This document shows positions 53,095 to 58,698 of a DNA stretch of 64,000 bases, in pieces. The position numbers and the translations under genes were made by a program. Source of the DNA: Halalkalicoccus sp. CG83 (GTDB lineage: Archaea; Halobacteriota; Halobacteria; Halobacteriales; Halalkalicoccaceae). How positions within the stretch are numbered: the stretch's first letter is position 1; the number at the start of each line of letters is the position of its first letter. Where the stretch lies: contig NZ_JAZDDH010000001.1 in NCBI RefSeq assembly GCF_037081715.1, positions 1,674,001 to 1,738,000 of the forward strand. Direction: 5' to 3'. The notes beneath the pieces were generated by a model. That model had not been told where the DNA came from and searched no databases. It worked only from the letters and a program-made list of their open reading frames with translations.

Positions 53095-54405
53095 TTAGAC
53101 GGCGTTCATGAAGCCGCTGGTCGCGCCGTCCACGTCGAAGGGGTCGGCGAAGGTGTCGTTGAGCACGCCCTCAAGGTCCGACTGGGTGCTCGGATCCACC
53201 GCGAGACCGTGGGCGAGCGTCGGCGGCTTCTCCGAGGCGTTCTGGAAGTCCTCGATCGTGCTCGTGAGGTACTCGTTGAACTCGTCGGTGGACACCTCTT
53301 GGAGGGTGGGGATCGAACCCTTGTACTGATTGAACTGGACCTGGGCCGTCTCACCGCCGACGAACCGGAGGAATGCGGCGGACTCCTCGGGGCTGGGGTT
53401 CTCCCCCGGATAGATGAACGAGTCGAGGTGCAGGCCGTACATTCCGTCGGTTCCGGGAAAACGGACGGCGTCCCACTCCGCGCCGTACTCCAGACCCTCG
53501 TTGATGTACGCGCCCGCGACCCAGTTGCCCTGGTGGATGAACGCCGCGTCGCCGCTCATGATGTCCTGGTTGACCTCGGTGAAGTCGACGGACGCGGCGT
53601 CGTTGTTGATGTAGTTGCTCAGTATCTGCTCGAGCGTCTCGAACGTCGATCGGACGGCCGCCTCGTCGCCCTCGCCCTCGATGAAGCTCGTGTAGGCGTC
53701 GAACCCCTGGGTGCCGAGCATGGTGACGGCCCATGTCTGAAGGATCCCCCATGGCGCGAGCGACATCGCGAAGGGCGTGGCATCCGTTTCCGTGTTGACC
53801 GTGTCCAGCGCGTCGATCAGCGCATCGACGTCGCCCAGCGAACTCGGGTCGACGCCGGCCTGCTCGACGACCTCGACGTTGTAGAAGAGGTCGTTCATGC
53901 GGTGGGAACCGATCGGAACCGCCGAGAAGCCGTCGTCGAACTGGCAGGCCTCGACGGCCTCCTGGGCATGAGTGTCCTTCAGACCGGCCTCGTCCCAGAC
54001 GTCGGCCTCGATGTCGCCGAGGGCGCCCTCGTACTGCTGGAGGTTGGCGCCCGGCCAGCCGGCGAACGAACTCGGCGGATCGTTGCTCTGGAGACGGTTC
54101 GCGACCGTCTGGTCGAGGTTCTCGTTCCCCCCACCTCCGATCGGGTTCTCGTCGATCTCCATGTCGGGGTACTCCTCCGCGAGCGCGCTGAAGAGGGCGT
54201 CGGCGGCCTCCGCGCCGTCCCCGCCGGTCCAGCCGTGGAGCACCTCGAGCGTGTTGCTCCACTCGCCGCTTCCCCCACCGCCACCGCCGCCGTCGCCGCC
54301 GTTCCCCTCACCGCCGGTCAGACAGCCCGACAACGCCAGTACACCTGCGGTCCCGGCGACGCCCCCTAGAACCGTTCGTCGCGAAAGTGAGTCATTATTG
54401 AACAT
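53095..54405 (-). CDS. Sugar ABC substrate-binding lipoprotein
   Basis: A 436-residue extracytoplasmic binding protein of the carbohydrate-uptake-1 type. A Tat signal SRRTVLGGVAGTAGVLALSG ends in a lipobox Cys (SGC), so it is a membrane-anchored lipoprotein, followed by a Gly/Ser linker. The mature part has LEVLHGWTGGDGAEAADALF and the SBP fold. I took the ATG at 54405; an in-frame GTG at 54414 would add three residues. A minus-strand TATA-like atgttaag is about 33-40 bp upstream. The transported sugar is unknown. Confidence 0.93.
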   Translation of the reverse strand: MFNNDSLSRRTVLGGVAGTAGVLALSGCLTGGEGNGGDGGGGGGGSGEWSNTLEVLHGWTGGDGAEAADALFSALAEEYPDMEIDENPIGGGGNENLDQTVANRLQSNDPPSSFAGWPGANLQQYEGALGDIEADVWDEAGLKDTHAQEAVEACQFDDGFSAVPIGSHRMNDLFYNVEVVEQAGVDPSSLGDVDALIDALDTVNTETDATPFAMSLAPWGILQTWAVTMLGTQGFDAYTSFIEGEGDEAAVRSTFETLEQILSNYINNDAASVDFTEVNQDIMSGDAAFIHQGNWVAGAYINEGLEYGAEWDAVRFPGTDGMYGLHLDSFIYPGENPSPEESAAFLRFVGGETAQVQFNQYKGSIPTLQEVSTDEFNEYLTSTIEDFQNASEKPPTLAHGLAVDPSTQSDLEGVLNDTFADPFDVDGATSGFMNAV

Positions 54406-54611
54406 GATCGGCACGAAGGGACCGAAGGAGCAGGGTCACTTAACATTTCTGTCTTACTTCATCACCGAGTTCCTCACACCGCGACCCTTTCGGAGAACAC
54501 CCGCAGGCGGCCCGATCGGGAAGACCGAACTGCAATCGGAGGGATCGGCGACACGTTCGAGGAGAGCGGCGTTCCGGTGGCTTTTACCCGACTCCTCCCG
54601 AGGTGTCGCGC

Positions 54612-56478: not shown

Positions 56479-56499
56479 ATATATAAACTTATACTTATT
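56479..56499 (+). promoter_or_regulatory. Strong TATA region of the sequon lipoprotein gene
   Basis: An A/T-rich run including atataaactt and tatacttatt lies 22-42 bp before the ATG at 56521. It is the strongest TATA-like stretch seen in the window, suggesting high expression. Confidence 0.6.
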
Positions 56500-56520
56500 C
56501 GGACCGGATTCAGGAGCGTA

Positions 56521-56763
56521 ATGCAACGACGAGAGTTCATCGCGCTCACCGGTGCCGCAACGCTTCCGCTCCTGGCCGGCTGTACGAACGACGAGGAGGG
56601 TAGCGAGGACGGAGGGCACGACGAGAACGGCACGGACGAGTCCGAGGACAACGAGAGCGACACGAACGAATCCGGACTGAACGAGTCCGACGACAACGAG
56701 AGCGACACGAACGAGTCGGGGATGAACGAGAGCGACATGAACGAGTCCGACGAGGACCTCTAA
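56521..56763 (+). CDS. Small lipoprotein of repeated N-glycosylation sequons
   Basis: An 80-residue protein. MQRREFIALTGAATLPLLAG plus Cys21 is a Tat-type signal with lipobox (LLAGC). The mature 60 residues are almost all Asp/Glu/Asn/Ser and contain eight N-x-S/T sequons: one NGT and seven NES, in repeats like DNESDTNESG. It has no globular domain. It should be a lipid-anchored, highly acidic tail outside the cell that can carry dense N-glycans. Its function is unknown; a surface coat, spacer or glycan carrier is a guess. It has a strong own promoter. Confidence 0.8.
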   Translation: MQRREFIALTGAATLPLLAGCTNDEEGSEDGGHDENGTDESEDNESDTNESGLNESDDNESDTNESGMNESDMNESDEDL

Positions 56764-56826
56764 CCGCCGGGCGCTCCCGGACGCGACTGGACGGTTTTTT
56801 ATCGCTCGACCGCGCACGGCGGAACG

Positions 56827-58698
56827 ATGACCGCGGAGTACGACTACGAATCCCTCGGGCTCGTCGCCGGTCTCGAGATCCACCAGCAGCTCGACACCGA
56901 GACCAAGCTCTTCTGTTCGTGTCCCACCGAGCGGCGTGACCCCGACGGGGCCGCTCGGCGCTTCACGCGCTATCTCCACCCGACGAGGAGCGAGCTCGGC
57001 GAGGTCGACGACGCCGCCCTTGAGGAGAGCCAGATCGACCGCGAGTTCGAGTACCTCGCCTACGACTCGACCTGCCTCGTCGAGGAGGACGAGGAGCCGC
57101 CCCATCGGCTCGACCGCGAGGCGCTCGGCGTCGCCCTCGAGATCGCCCAACTGCTCGAGATGGCCGCCGTCGACCAGGCCCACGTGATGCGGAAGATCGT
57201 CGTCGACGGCTCGAACACGTCGGGCTTCCAGCGCTCCTCGCTGATCGCCACCGACGGCGAGATCGAGACCAGCGCGGGCCCGGTCGGGATCGAGGACCTC
57301 CTGCTGGAGGAGGAGAGCGCCGCACGGATCGAGGAGACCGACGAGGGAGTGCGCTTCGGGCTCGACAGGCTCGGCATTCCGTTGGTCGAGATCGGCACGA
57401 GTCCCGACATCCGCTCGCCCGAGCAGGCGCGCGAGGCCGCCGAACGCATCGGGATGCTGCTTCGCTCGACGGGTACCGTGAAACGGGGCCTCGGCACCAT
57501 CCGCCAGGACGTCAACGTCTCGATCGCGGAGGGCGCGCGCGTCGAGATGAAGGGCGTCCAGAGCCTCGACGAGATCGACGACCTCGTCCGCGAGGAGGTC
57601 GGCCGCCAGGTCGCGCTGCTCGAGATCAGCGAGGAGCTCGCCGAGCGCGACGCCTCGGTGGGCGATCCGATCGACGCGAGCGAGGTCTTCGAGGACACCG
57701 AGAGCGGCGTCATCGGCGGCGCGCTCGGTTCGGGCGGCTCCGTGATGGCCGTTCCCCTCTACGGGTTCGACGGCCTCGTGGGCCGCGAGCTCCAGCCCGA
57801 CCGCCGACTCGGGACCGAGCTCTCGGATCACGCGAAGCGCCACGGAGCGGGCGGGATCTTCCACACCGACGAGCTTCCCGCCTACGGAGTCACCGGGAAC
57901 GAGGTCGAGGCGCTGCGTGAGGCGGTCGGTGCGAGCGAGGGGGACGCGGTCGCCATCGTCGCCGACGACACCGACACGGCCGAGAACGCGATCGAGGCGG
58001 TCGCGGAACGCGCCCGAACGGCGATGGAGGGCGTCCCCGAGGAGACCCGTGGTGCGAACGAGGATGGCACCTCGCGGTACCTGCGCCCGTTACCCGGCGC
58101 GGCGCGGATGTATCCCGAGACGGACGTCCCGCCGGTCGAGCCCGACCCCTCGGAGGTCGAGGCGCCCGAACTGCTGACCGAGAAGGTCGAGCGGTATCAG
58201 TCCGAACACGATCTGGACGCCGGGCTCGCCGAACAGGTCGCCTACGGCCGACGCATGCCGCTGTTCGAGCACGTCGTGAGCGAGGGGGTCGATCCGACGC
58301 TCGCCGCCGGCACGCTCGAGTCCACCCTGACGGAGCTTCGGCGTGACGACGTACCCGTCGGAAACCTGACCGACGACCACCTCGCGGGGACGCTCGCGCT
58401 CGTACGCGACGGCGACCTCCCCAAGGGGAGCGTCGGCGACCTGCTGCGGGTGCTCGCCGAGGAGCCGTCGTTGACGGCCGAGGAGGCAGCGGAGCGCGAG
58501 GAGCTCGGCGGCGCCTCCGAGGGCGACGTCCGGGAGGCCGTCCGCGAGGTCGTCGAGCGAAACGAAGCGCAGGTCGAGGCCGAGGGGATGGGCGCGTTCT
58601 CCGGACTGATGGGCGAGGCGATGGGCACGCTCGGCGGGAAGGCCGACGGCGAGGTCGTCAGCACCGCCCTGCGCGAGGAGATCCAGAAGCGGACCTGA
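56827..58698 (+). CDS. gatE: Glu-tRNA(Gln) amidotransferase subunit E
   Basis: A 623-residue GatB/GatE-family kinase domain protein. It begins with YESLGLVAGLEIHQQLDTET (the GLEIHxQL hallmark), followed by KLFCSCPTERRDPDGAARRF, VVDGSNTSGFQRSSLIA and EIGTSPDIRSPEQAREAAER. The insert around 270-400 is the AspRS-like GatE-specific domain, and the C-terminal YqeY-like domain ends the protein. With GatD it forms Gln-tRNA in archaea. GatD is not seen here. Confidence 0.95.
   Translation: MTAEYDYESLGLVAGLEIHQQLDTETKLFCSCPTERRDPDGAARRFTRYLHPTRSELGEVDDAALEESQIDREFEYLAYDSTCLVEEDEEPPHRLDREALGVALEIAQLLEMAAVDQAHVMRKIVVDGSNTSGFQRSSLIATDGEIETSAGPVGIEDLLLEEESAARIEETDEGVRFGLDRLGIPLVEIGTSPDIRSPEQAREAAERIGMLLRSTGTVKRGLGTIRQDVNVSIAEGARVEMKGVQSLDEIDDLVREEVGRQVALLEISEELAERDASVGDPIDASEVFEDTESGVIGGALGSGGSVMAVPLYGFDGLVGRELQPDRRLGTELSDHAKRHGAGGIFHTDELPAYGVTGNEVEALREAVGASEGDAVAIVADDTDTAENAIEAVAERARTAMEGVPEETRGANEDGTSRYLRPLPGAARMYPETDVPPVEPDPSEVEAPELLTEKVERYQSEHDLDAGLAEQVAYGRRMPLFEHVVSEGVDPTLAAGTLESTLTELRRDDVPVGNLTDDHLAGTLALVRDGDLPKGSVGDLLRVLAEEPSLTAEEAAEREELGGASEGDVREAVREVVERNEAQVEAEGMGAFSGLMGEAMGTLGGKADGEVVSTALREEIQKRT

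Follow-up and report, generated by a model that had tools for sequence, protein, structure and literature searches.

CD52 is a GPI-anchored peptide that carries one N-glycan plus O-glycans, and CD24-type mini-mucins are comparable. In eukaryotes, a sequon that combines an acidic x residue with Ser is a poorer one. The CD52 glycopeptide itself is 12 residues long (PMC11982460). In Haloferax volcanii, lipobox proteins, including the Tat protein HVO_1624, are counted among the AglB-dependent N-glycoproteins (PMC8241124). What the DXD and TIXE/SVSE motifs do in AglB is described in a further source, which also reports that glycosylated sites show little preference at X, except that Pro is excluded (PMC8342417). 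Here we describe P0001, a gene in a 64,000-nt stretch of Halalkalicoccus sp. CG83 DNA (the window), whose product is probably a lipid-anchored, intrinsically disordered glycan carrier, that is, a minimal N-linked "mucin".

A stalk-only lipoprotein gene upstream of gatE

The features of the locus are as follows.

56480..56499, + strand: promoter-like element TATATAAACTTATACTTATT, A/T at 18 of 20 positions, lying about 37 nt 5' of the ATG, with a putative role in transcription
56512..56516, + strand: possible Shine-Dalgarno sequence AGGAG ahead of the ATG, from reading of the sequence
56521..56763, + strand: P0001, a stalk-only Tat lipoprotein gene encoding 80 amino acids
56521..56580, + strand: twin-arginine signal peptide MQRREFIALTGAATLPLLAG
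56581..56583, + strand: lipobox cysteine (LAGC), residue 21
56626..56748, + strand: span from the first to the last of eight N-x-S/T sequons (NGT and seven NES), assessed by shuffling and codon reading
56793..56801, + strand: GGTTTTTTA motif ahead of gatE
56827..58698, + strand: gatE (Glu-tRNA(Gln) amidotransferase subunit E), a syntenic anchor that is not part of the function

The P0001 reading frame translates as MQRREFIALTGAATLPLLAGC followed by TNDEEGSEDGGHDENGTDESEDNESDTNESGLNESDDNESDTNESGMNESDMNESDEDL, with the split placed after the lipobox cysteine. A twin-arginine motif (MQRREF) followed by a hydrophobic stretch lies in MQRREFIALTGAATLPLLAGC, and from this motif we take the leader to be of the twin-arginine (Tat) type. 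The lipobox LAGC occupies residues 18-21, with Cys21 as the first mature residue, and the mature part of 60 residues contains one NGT and seven NES sequons, all eight with an x residue other than Pro and all on the predicted exported side. Reading frame, coordinates, leader, lipobox, mature length and sequons are exactly those given in the first-pass annotation of this DNA, which had also described the protein as lacking a globular domain. In agreement with the latter, searches of Pfam and NCBIfam gave no match above cut-off for P0001, and AlphaFold2 run without an alignment, a weak test on a single sequence, returned no secondary structure (pTM 0.12, mean pLDDT 64). The Pfam TAT_signal model did not match P0001, and it matched P0004 (see below) and P0006, a Natrinema GGPG protein, below cut-off only.

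The sequon content of P0001 is far above chance. Eight sequons were observed versus 1.95 ± 1.14 expected from 5000 shuffles of the mature residues, and none of the 5000 shuffles reached eight or more. The mirror motif [ST]-x-N does not occur in the mature part. Among the 287 window ORFs of at least 75 amino acids, P0001 has the highest sequon density (10 per 100 amino acids, with 4.8 for the runner-up), and the other window ORF that matches the twin-Arg/lipobox pattern (53095-54414, minus strand) has no sequons in the 60 residues with which its linker begins. The Ser codons of the NES sequons are mixed (AGC, TCC and TCG), which makes it unlikely that a single unit was copied very recently. Asp and Glu together make up 44% of the tail, which has one His and no His repeats. 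Lys and Arg are absent from the mature tail, and data sets obtained with trypsin would therefore miss it.

The earlier description of the strongest TATA region also holds, in that no other 20-mer of the window (window GC 67.6%) is as rich in A/T as TATATAAACTTATACTTATT, and only one other site reaches 16 of 20 A/T. By eye, an equally A/T-rich element is absent ahead of the P0001 orthologs. High expression of P0001 thus finds no support beyond the richness of TATATAAACTTATACTTATT, and the claim that the protein is abundant, for which this promoter was the sole basis, is weakened.

We compared seven Halalkalicoccus genomes using gatE (56827..58698) as the query; its identity within the genus is 84-86%, with 86% to H. 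paucihalophilus. A lipoprotein gene lies on the same strand directly upstream of gatE in five of the seven genomes, and thus P0001 is a real gene. These orthologs have eight sequons in the window genome, five in G005, four in G001 and none in G004 and G003. The G003 and G004 tails are purely acidic, and both genomes have AglB. A sixth species, G006, has no such lipoprotein gene upstream of gatE. The contig of H. paucihalophilus (G002; L009/L120) extends for 175 nt on the upstream side of gatE, and this genome was not counted. The ortholog tails carry NES, NHSHDG repeats or purely acidic sequence; at this locus the leader and the position have been kept while the tail has been remade. The first-pass annotation had named a tail both unglycosylated and unconserved as something that would speak against its reading, and the tail at this locus is indeed not conserved, which goes part of the way towards that outcome for this gene: sequons persist in three of the five orthologs and are missing from two, and the sixth species lacks the gene altogether.

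Several side observations concern the same locus. The orthologs L124 (G001) and L123 (G005) have His-rich NHSHDG repeats that contain NHS/NHT sequons plus His-x-His, which suggests metal binding together with glycosylation sites. At the end of the H. paucihalophilus contig (L009 1-175; L120), some 40 nt away from gatE, lies a lipoprotein leader in inverted orientation, which may be either a true inversion or an assembly-end fold-back. By eye, the GGTTTTTTA motif is kept in Halalkalicoccus gatE upstream regions, and a possible reading is that it marks the gatE promoter and/or the end of the lipoprotein transcript. A pattern search of the 1.2 kb ahead of gatE at 80 named gatE loci, some of them with less upstream DNA, detected no short stalk lipoprotein of this type outside Halalkalicoccus; it did show some longer lipoproteins encoded on the opposite strand.

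Sequon arrays in other haloarchaeal lipoproteins

The genome that contains P0001 encodes two further stalk-only lipoproteins, P0003 (109 amino acids) and P0004 (114 amino acids). P0003 has 13 sequons and P0004 has 12, and every tail Asn lies within a sequon in both proteins, 13 of 13 in P0003 and 12 of 12 in P0004. The same genome encodes P0005, in which a cupredoxin-like domain (Pfam E = 0.019, below cut-off) follows a similar stalk with nine sequons. In P0003, 12 of the 13 sequons are written with one and the same codon triplet, AACGAGTCC, and for this reason P0003 looks recently expanded. The leader DNA of P0003 (L089 3753-4082, minus strand) is identical to that of P0005 (L090 2094-2669, plus strand) at 75 of 81 positions, yet the two genes have unrelated DNA upstream, a pattern that an exchange of export leaders between lipoproteins would produce. 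P0003 adjoins a group-1/family-4 glycosyltransferase gene, with a DUF1616 protein encoded nearby. Homologues that share the P0003 leader (L277, L283 and L279) have no sequons, their tails consisting of DPAEDD/DPAADDEE repeats. We rejected a viral origin, as no P0003 relative was found in viral contigs, and a plasmid origin, as P0006 had no match among 72,556 plasmid records, a weak test given the low-complexity filter of BLAST.

The first-pass annotation had proposed a search for short Tat lipoproteins with at least six sequons in haloarchaea. In searches of 392 genomes of the order and of 29 genomes of the genus taken to be Natrinema, we found at least 47 stalk-only proteins, none longer than 125 amino acids and each with 5-16 sequons, in at least 41 genomes representing 10 genera and 4 families; in most genomes of the order 11-12 candidates each were scored and part of the matches were read, so the counts of 47 and 41 are lower bounds. 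The queries were sequon-rich, except for the Natrinema family, which was collected by its leader, and the gatE-locus set, which was collected by synteny. The x residue differs by lineage, with NES in P0001, NDS and NHS in G005, NHS/NHT in G001 and mostly NET in Natrinema; across lineages x varies (E, D, H, A, M), and the N and S/T positions stay. In genus g66, a stalk-only lipoprotein (L154) has no sequons.

For the Natrinema GGPG family, the 33-residue leader alone served as the query, so the set is unbiased with respect to the tail. A GGPG ortholog is present in 28 of 29 Natrinema genomes; for the remaining genome, G183, only a cupredoxin lipoprotein (L254) was found, and it was counted as having no GGPG protein. 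The tails are 49-92 residues long with 5-16 sequons each, one of them (L227) being cut by an unread base. They are low-complexity repeats of variable length, made mostly of glycosylation sites and presumably disordered, with no His repeats and no domain matches. The fraction of tail Asn that lies within sequons is 56-100% across the 28 tails, and it is 77-100% in 26 of them versus about 20% expected. All of the tails exceed their shuffled sequon expectation, with z values from 3.6 to 8.4. In two 7-kb Natrinema neighbourhoods compared by eye, the GGPG gene lies beside the same 535-amino-acid gene, which suggests that its position is shared in Natrinema. Close to the Natrinema gene, a further open frame (L259 29-610, plus strand) is likewise rich in NET/NAT sequons.

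We used ten disjoint Natrinema ortholog pairs, picked by us from 31 similar pairs, to count changes by position. Changes that break a sequon number 8 of 203 versus 19 of 99 at x, making them about five-fold rarer. By position, the counts are 4 of 101 for N, 4 of 102 for S/T changing to something else, 19 of 99 for x and 64 of 303 for the other tail positions. Fisher's test of N plus S/T versus x gives P = 4e-5, or 9e-5 with a different alignment scoring. The full set of 31 pairs, which overlap and are not independent, gives the same picture, and in three ungapped pairs N changed at 0 of 27, S/T at 0 of 27 and x at 2 of 27 positions. In-register alignment of repeats could inflate the conservation of every position in the unit, but N and x would profit from this equally. 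In the 15 pairs for which we computed both values, pN in the tails is lower than pS in all 15, two-fold or more. At the level of sequence, selection is acting on the sequon itself in the Natrinema GGPG protein; this constraint is shown for Natrinema only, and P0001 has no close ortholog.

AglB and the genomes that lack it

The genome that contains P0001 has two STT3/AglB genes that score over the Pfam cut-off. The product of one of them (L126) has all of the catalytic motifs, namely both DXD sites (GVD and DHH), TVSE and WWDYG. In the second copy (L127 1258-4146, plus strand), QHH replaces DHH and there is no match to the first-DXD pattern that we used; its activity is perhaps altered.

A search with PF02516 found no STT3 match in 15 of the 392 genomes. 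We followed up nine of these 15 by protein search, in which seven of seven control genomes were positive. AglB was not found in G006, G192, G307 and G339, and it was found in G087, G108, G366, G322 and G030 despite the PF02516 miss. Since five supposedly AglB-less genomes do have AglB, the PF02516 search alone is no proof of its absence. G006 (Halalkalicoccus) and G192 (Natrinema) are near-complete genomes with no detectable AglB whose congeners have it, and they are possible natural losses of N-glycosylation.

The tails of LSRRRF-type proteins were read at 18 of 24 loci (all except L287, L292, L299, L288, L295 and L282). The three that were read from G006, which lacks AglB, have no sequons, and the LSRRRF tail of G003, in which AglB is present, is likewise acidic and free of sequons. 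A gatE tree did not resolve the placement of G003 versus G006. In G192, also without AglB, the GGPG protein keeps five sequons, and among the 28 orthologs it has both the lowest sequon density (0.056) and the smallest share of Asn within sequons (0.56), as expected if sequons decay where AglB is lost; a cupredoxin lipoprotein keeps seven sequons, all of them in C-terminal NES repeats by eye. The proposal that sequon loss follows AglB loss at first fitted G006 and G192, but AglB-positive G003 has none and AglB-less G192 keeps seven elsewhere, so there is no clean tracking. Cupredoxin-type lipoproteins with a C-terminal NET/NES sequon array occur in Natrinema (L257, L261, L262, L268, L274 and L275), and the array is possibly a glycan tail that follows a folded domain.

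A probable glycan carrier and its alternatives

As a probable glycan carrier, P0001 would be exported by the Tat route and lipidated at Cys21, as its motifs indicate, and its acidic 59-residue tail, of low complexity and with no domain, would be unfolded outside the membrane. AglB would add N-glycans to several of the eight sites, a step suggested by the presence of the enzyme, the sequon enrichment and the protection of the sites in Natrinema. Beneath the S-layer, on the outer face of the membrane, this would give a short brush of sugars, strongly hydrated and of negative charge, resembling a minimal mucin. The protein part would be interchangeable, with leaders conserved or swapped and tails that lengthen and shorten through their repeats; all that is kept would be the sequons or, in some species, the acidic charge. 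For the class as a whole, the first-pass term "densely glycosylated surface anchor" is a reasonable inference, since the sequons are far in excess of chance, AglB is present, the proteins occur in 10 genera and N and S/T are constrained in Natrinema. The following observations count against a glycan carrier: two of the five gatE-locus orthologs are sequon-free despite AglB, the LSRRRF tails are sequon-free in both AglB-positive G003 and AglB-less G006, and AglB-less G192 keeps sequons. The sequon pattern could in part be due to charge or to the growth of repeats.

These same observations lend weight to an acidic polyelectrolyte brush, in which charge and disorder would be selected (for ion or water binding, or for spacing) and sequons would be tolerated or occasionally used. 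Its strongest point is the sequon-free acidic orthologs that share a leader with sequon-bearing ones, at the gatE locus (G004 and G003) and in the LSRRRF group (G006 and G003), to which L154 of g66 can be added; the Asp and Glu content of the P0001 tail and the several sequons retained by G192 are also in its favour. The strongest point against it is the sequon-level constraint, as it leaves unexplained both the concentration of Asn in sequons in 26 of the 28 Natrinema tails and the fact that changes that break a sequon are five-fold rarer than changes at x, and we consider it rather unlikely as the explanation of P0001. Both may apply, with a pool of acidic stalks to which some lineages add sugars, and our best reading is of a glycan carrier recruited out of such a pool, whose acidic stalks evolve fast.

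We regard it as improbable that P0001 is a relic or spare linker, namely the stalk of an ordinary lipoprotein minus its domain, expanded by slippage and without a function of its own. P0005 does have the same kind of stalk and nearly the same leader DNA as P0003 with unrelated DNA upstream, the repeated AACGAGTCC triplet of P0003 is what slippage would give, and G006 does without the gene at the gatE locus. Against such a relic speak its retention by 28 of the 29 Natrinema genomes and the fact that tail pN is below pS; moreover, the Ser codons of P0001 NES include both AGC and TCC, which cannot be interconverted by one synonymous step. A stalk that binds or scavenges divalent cations, with sequons of secondary importance, would fit the NHSHDG repeats of the G001 and G005 orthologs and the acidic residues throughout, but neither P0001, with its one His, nor the Natrinema family has His repeats, which makes this account very improbable. 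Returning to the glycan carrier, we give about an even chance to its generalisation, in which haloarchaeal "minimal N-mucins" would be widespread, domain-less, lipid-anchored peptides that arose in several leader families and were selected for closely packed AglB acceptor sites; between membrane and S-layer they would make up a glycan brush that can be tuned, and the same arrays would also serve as stalks or tails of folded lipoproteins.

Our search of the open-access literature found no description of sequon-only archaeal lipoproteins, in line with the first-pass annotation, which knew of no described protein of this kind, and in a survey of haloarchaeal lipobox proteins (PMC2945643) the words glycosylation, linker, short, low complexity and threonine are all absent. 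If the glycan carrier reading is true, archaea would have reached, by way of N-linked sugars and lipobox lipidation, the solution that animals have in mucins and GPI-anchored mini-glycoproteins. These proteins would also offer a simple handle on the hardly known zone between the haloarchaeal membrane and the S-layer, and a natural multi-site AglB substrate, a single peptide from which occupancy, spacing and the x residue could all be read. For comparison, nature already supplies orthologs free of sequons and species without AglB.

Like the AglB-dependent N-glycoproteins of Hfx. volcanii, P0001 would combine export, a lipobox, N-x-S/T sites and a host AglB; the Hfx. volcanii proteins considered here have 1-5 listed glycopeptides each, with no sequon-only protein named among them (PMC8241124). 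P0001 shares an export leader, a lipobox and an acidic stalk rich in Gly, Asn and sequons with haloarchaeal Tat lipoproteins that have disordered linkers, such as P0005, yet those proteins carry a folded domain and P0001 is stalk only. Halomucin of Haloquadratum walsbyi is likewise a haloarchaeal mucin-like surface protein, but it is a giant secreted protein, whereas P0001 would be a lipid-anchored peptide. CD52 is eukaryotic and has a C-terminal GPI anchor, whereas proteins of the P0001 kind have an N-terminal lipobox, 8-16 sequons and an archaeal OST, and there is no homology between them. The resemblance of P0001 to mucins and CD52 would thus be one of concept: like CD52, it would be a lipid-anchored peptide with no folded domain, the bulk of which would be glycan.
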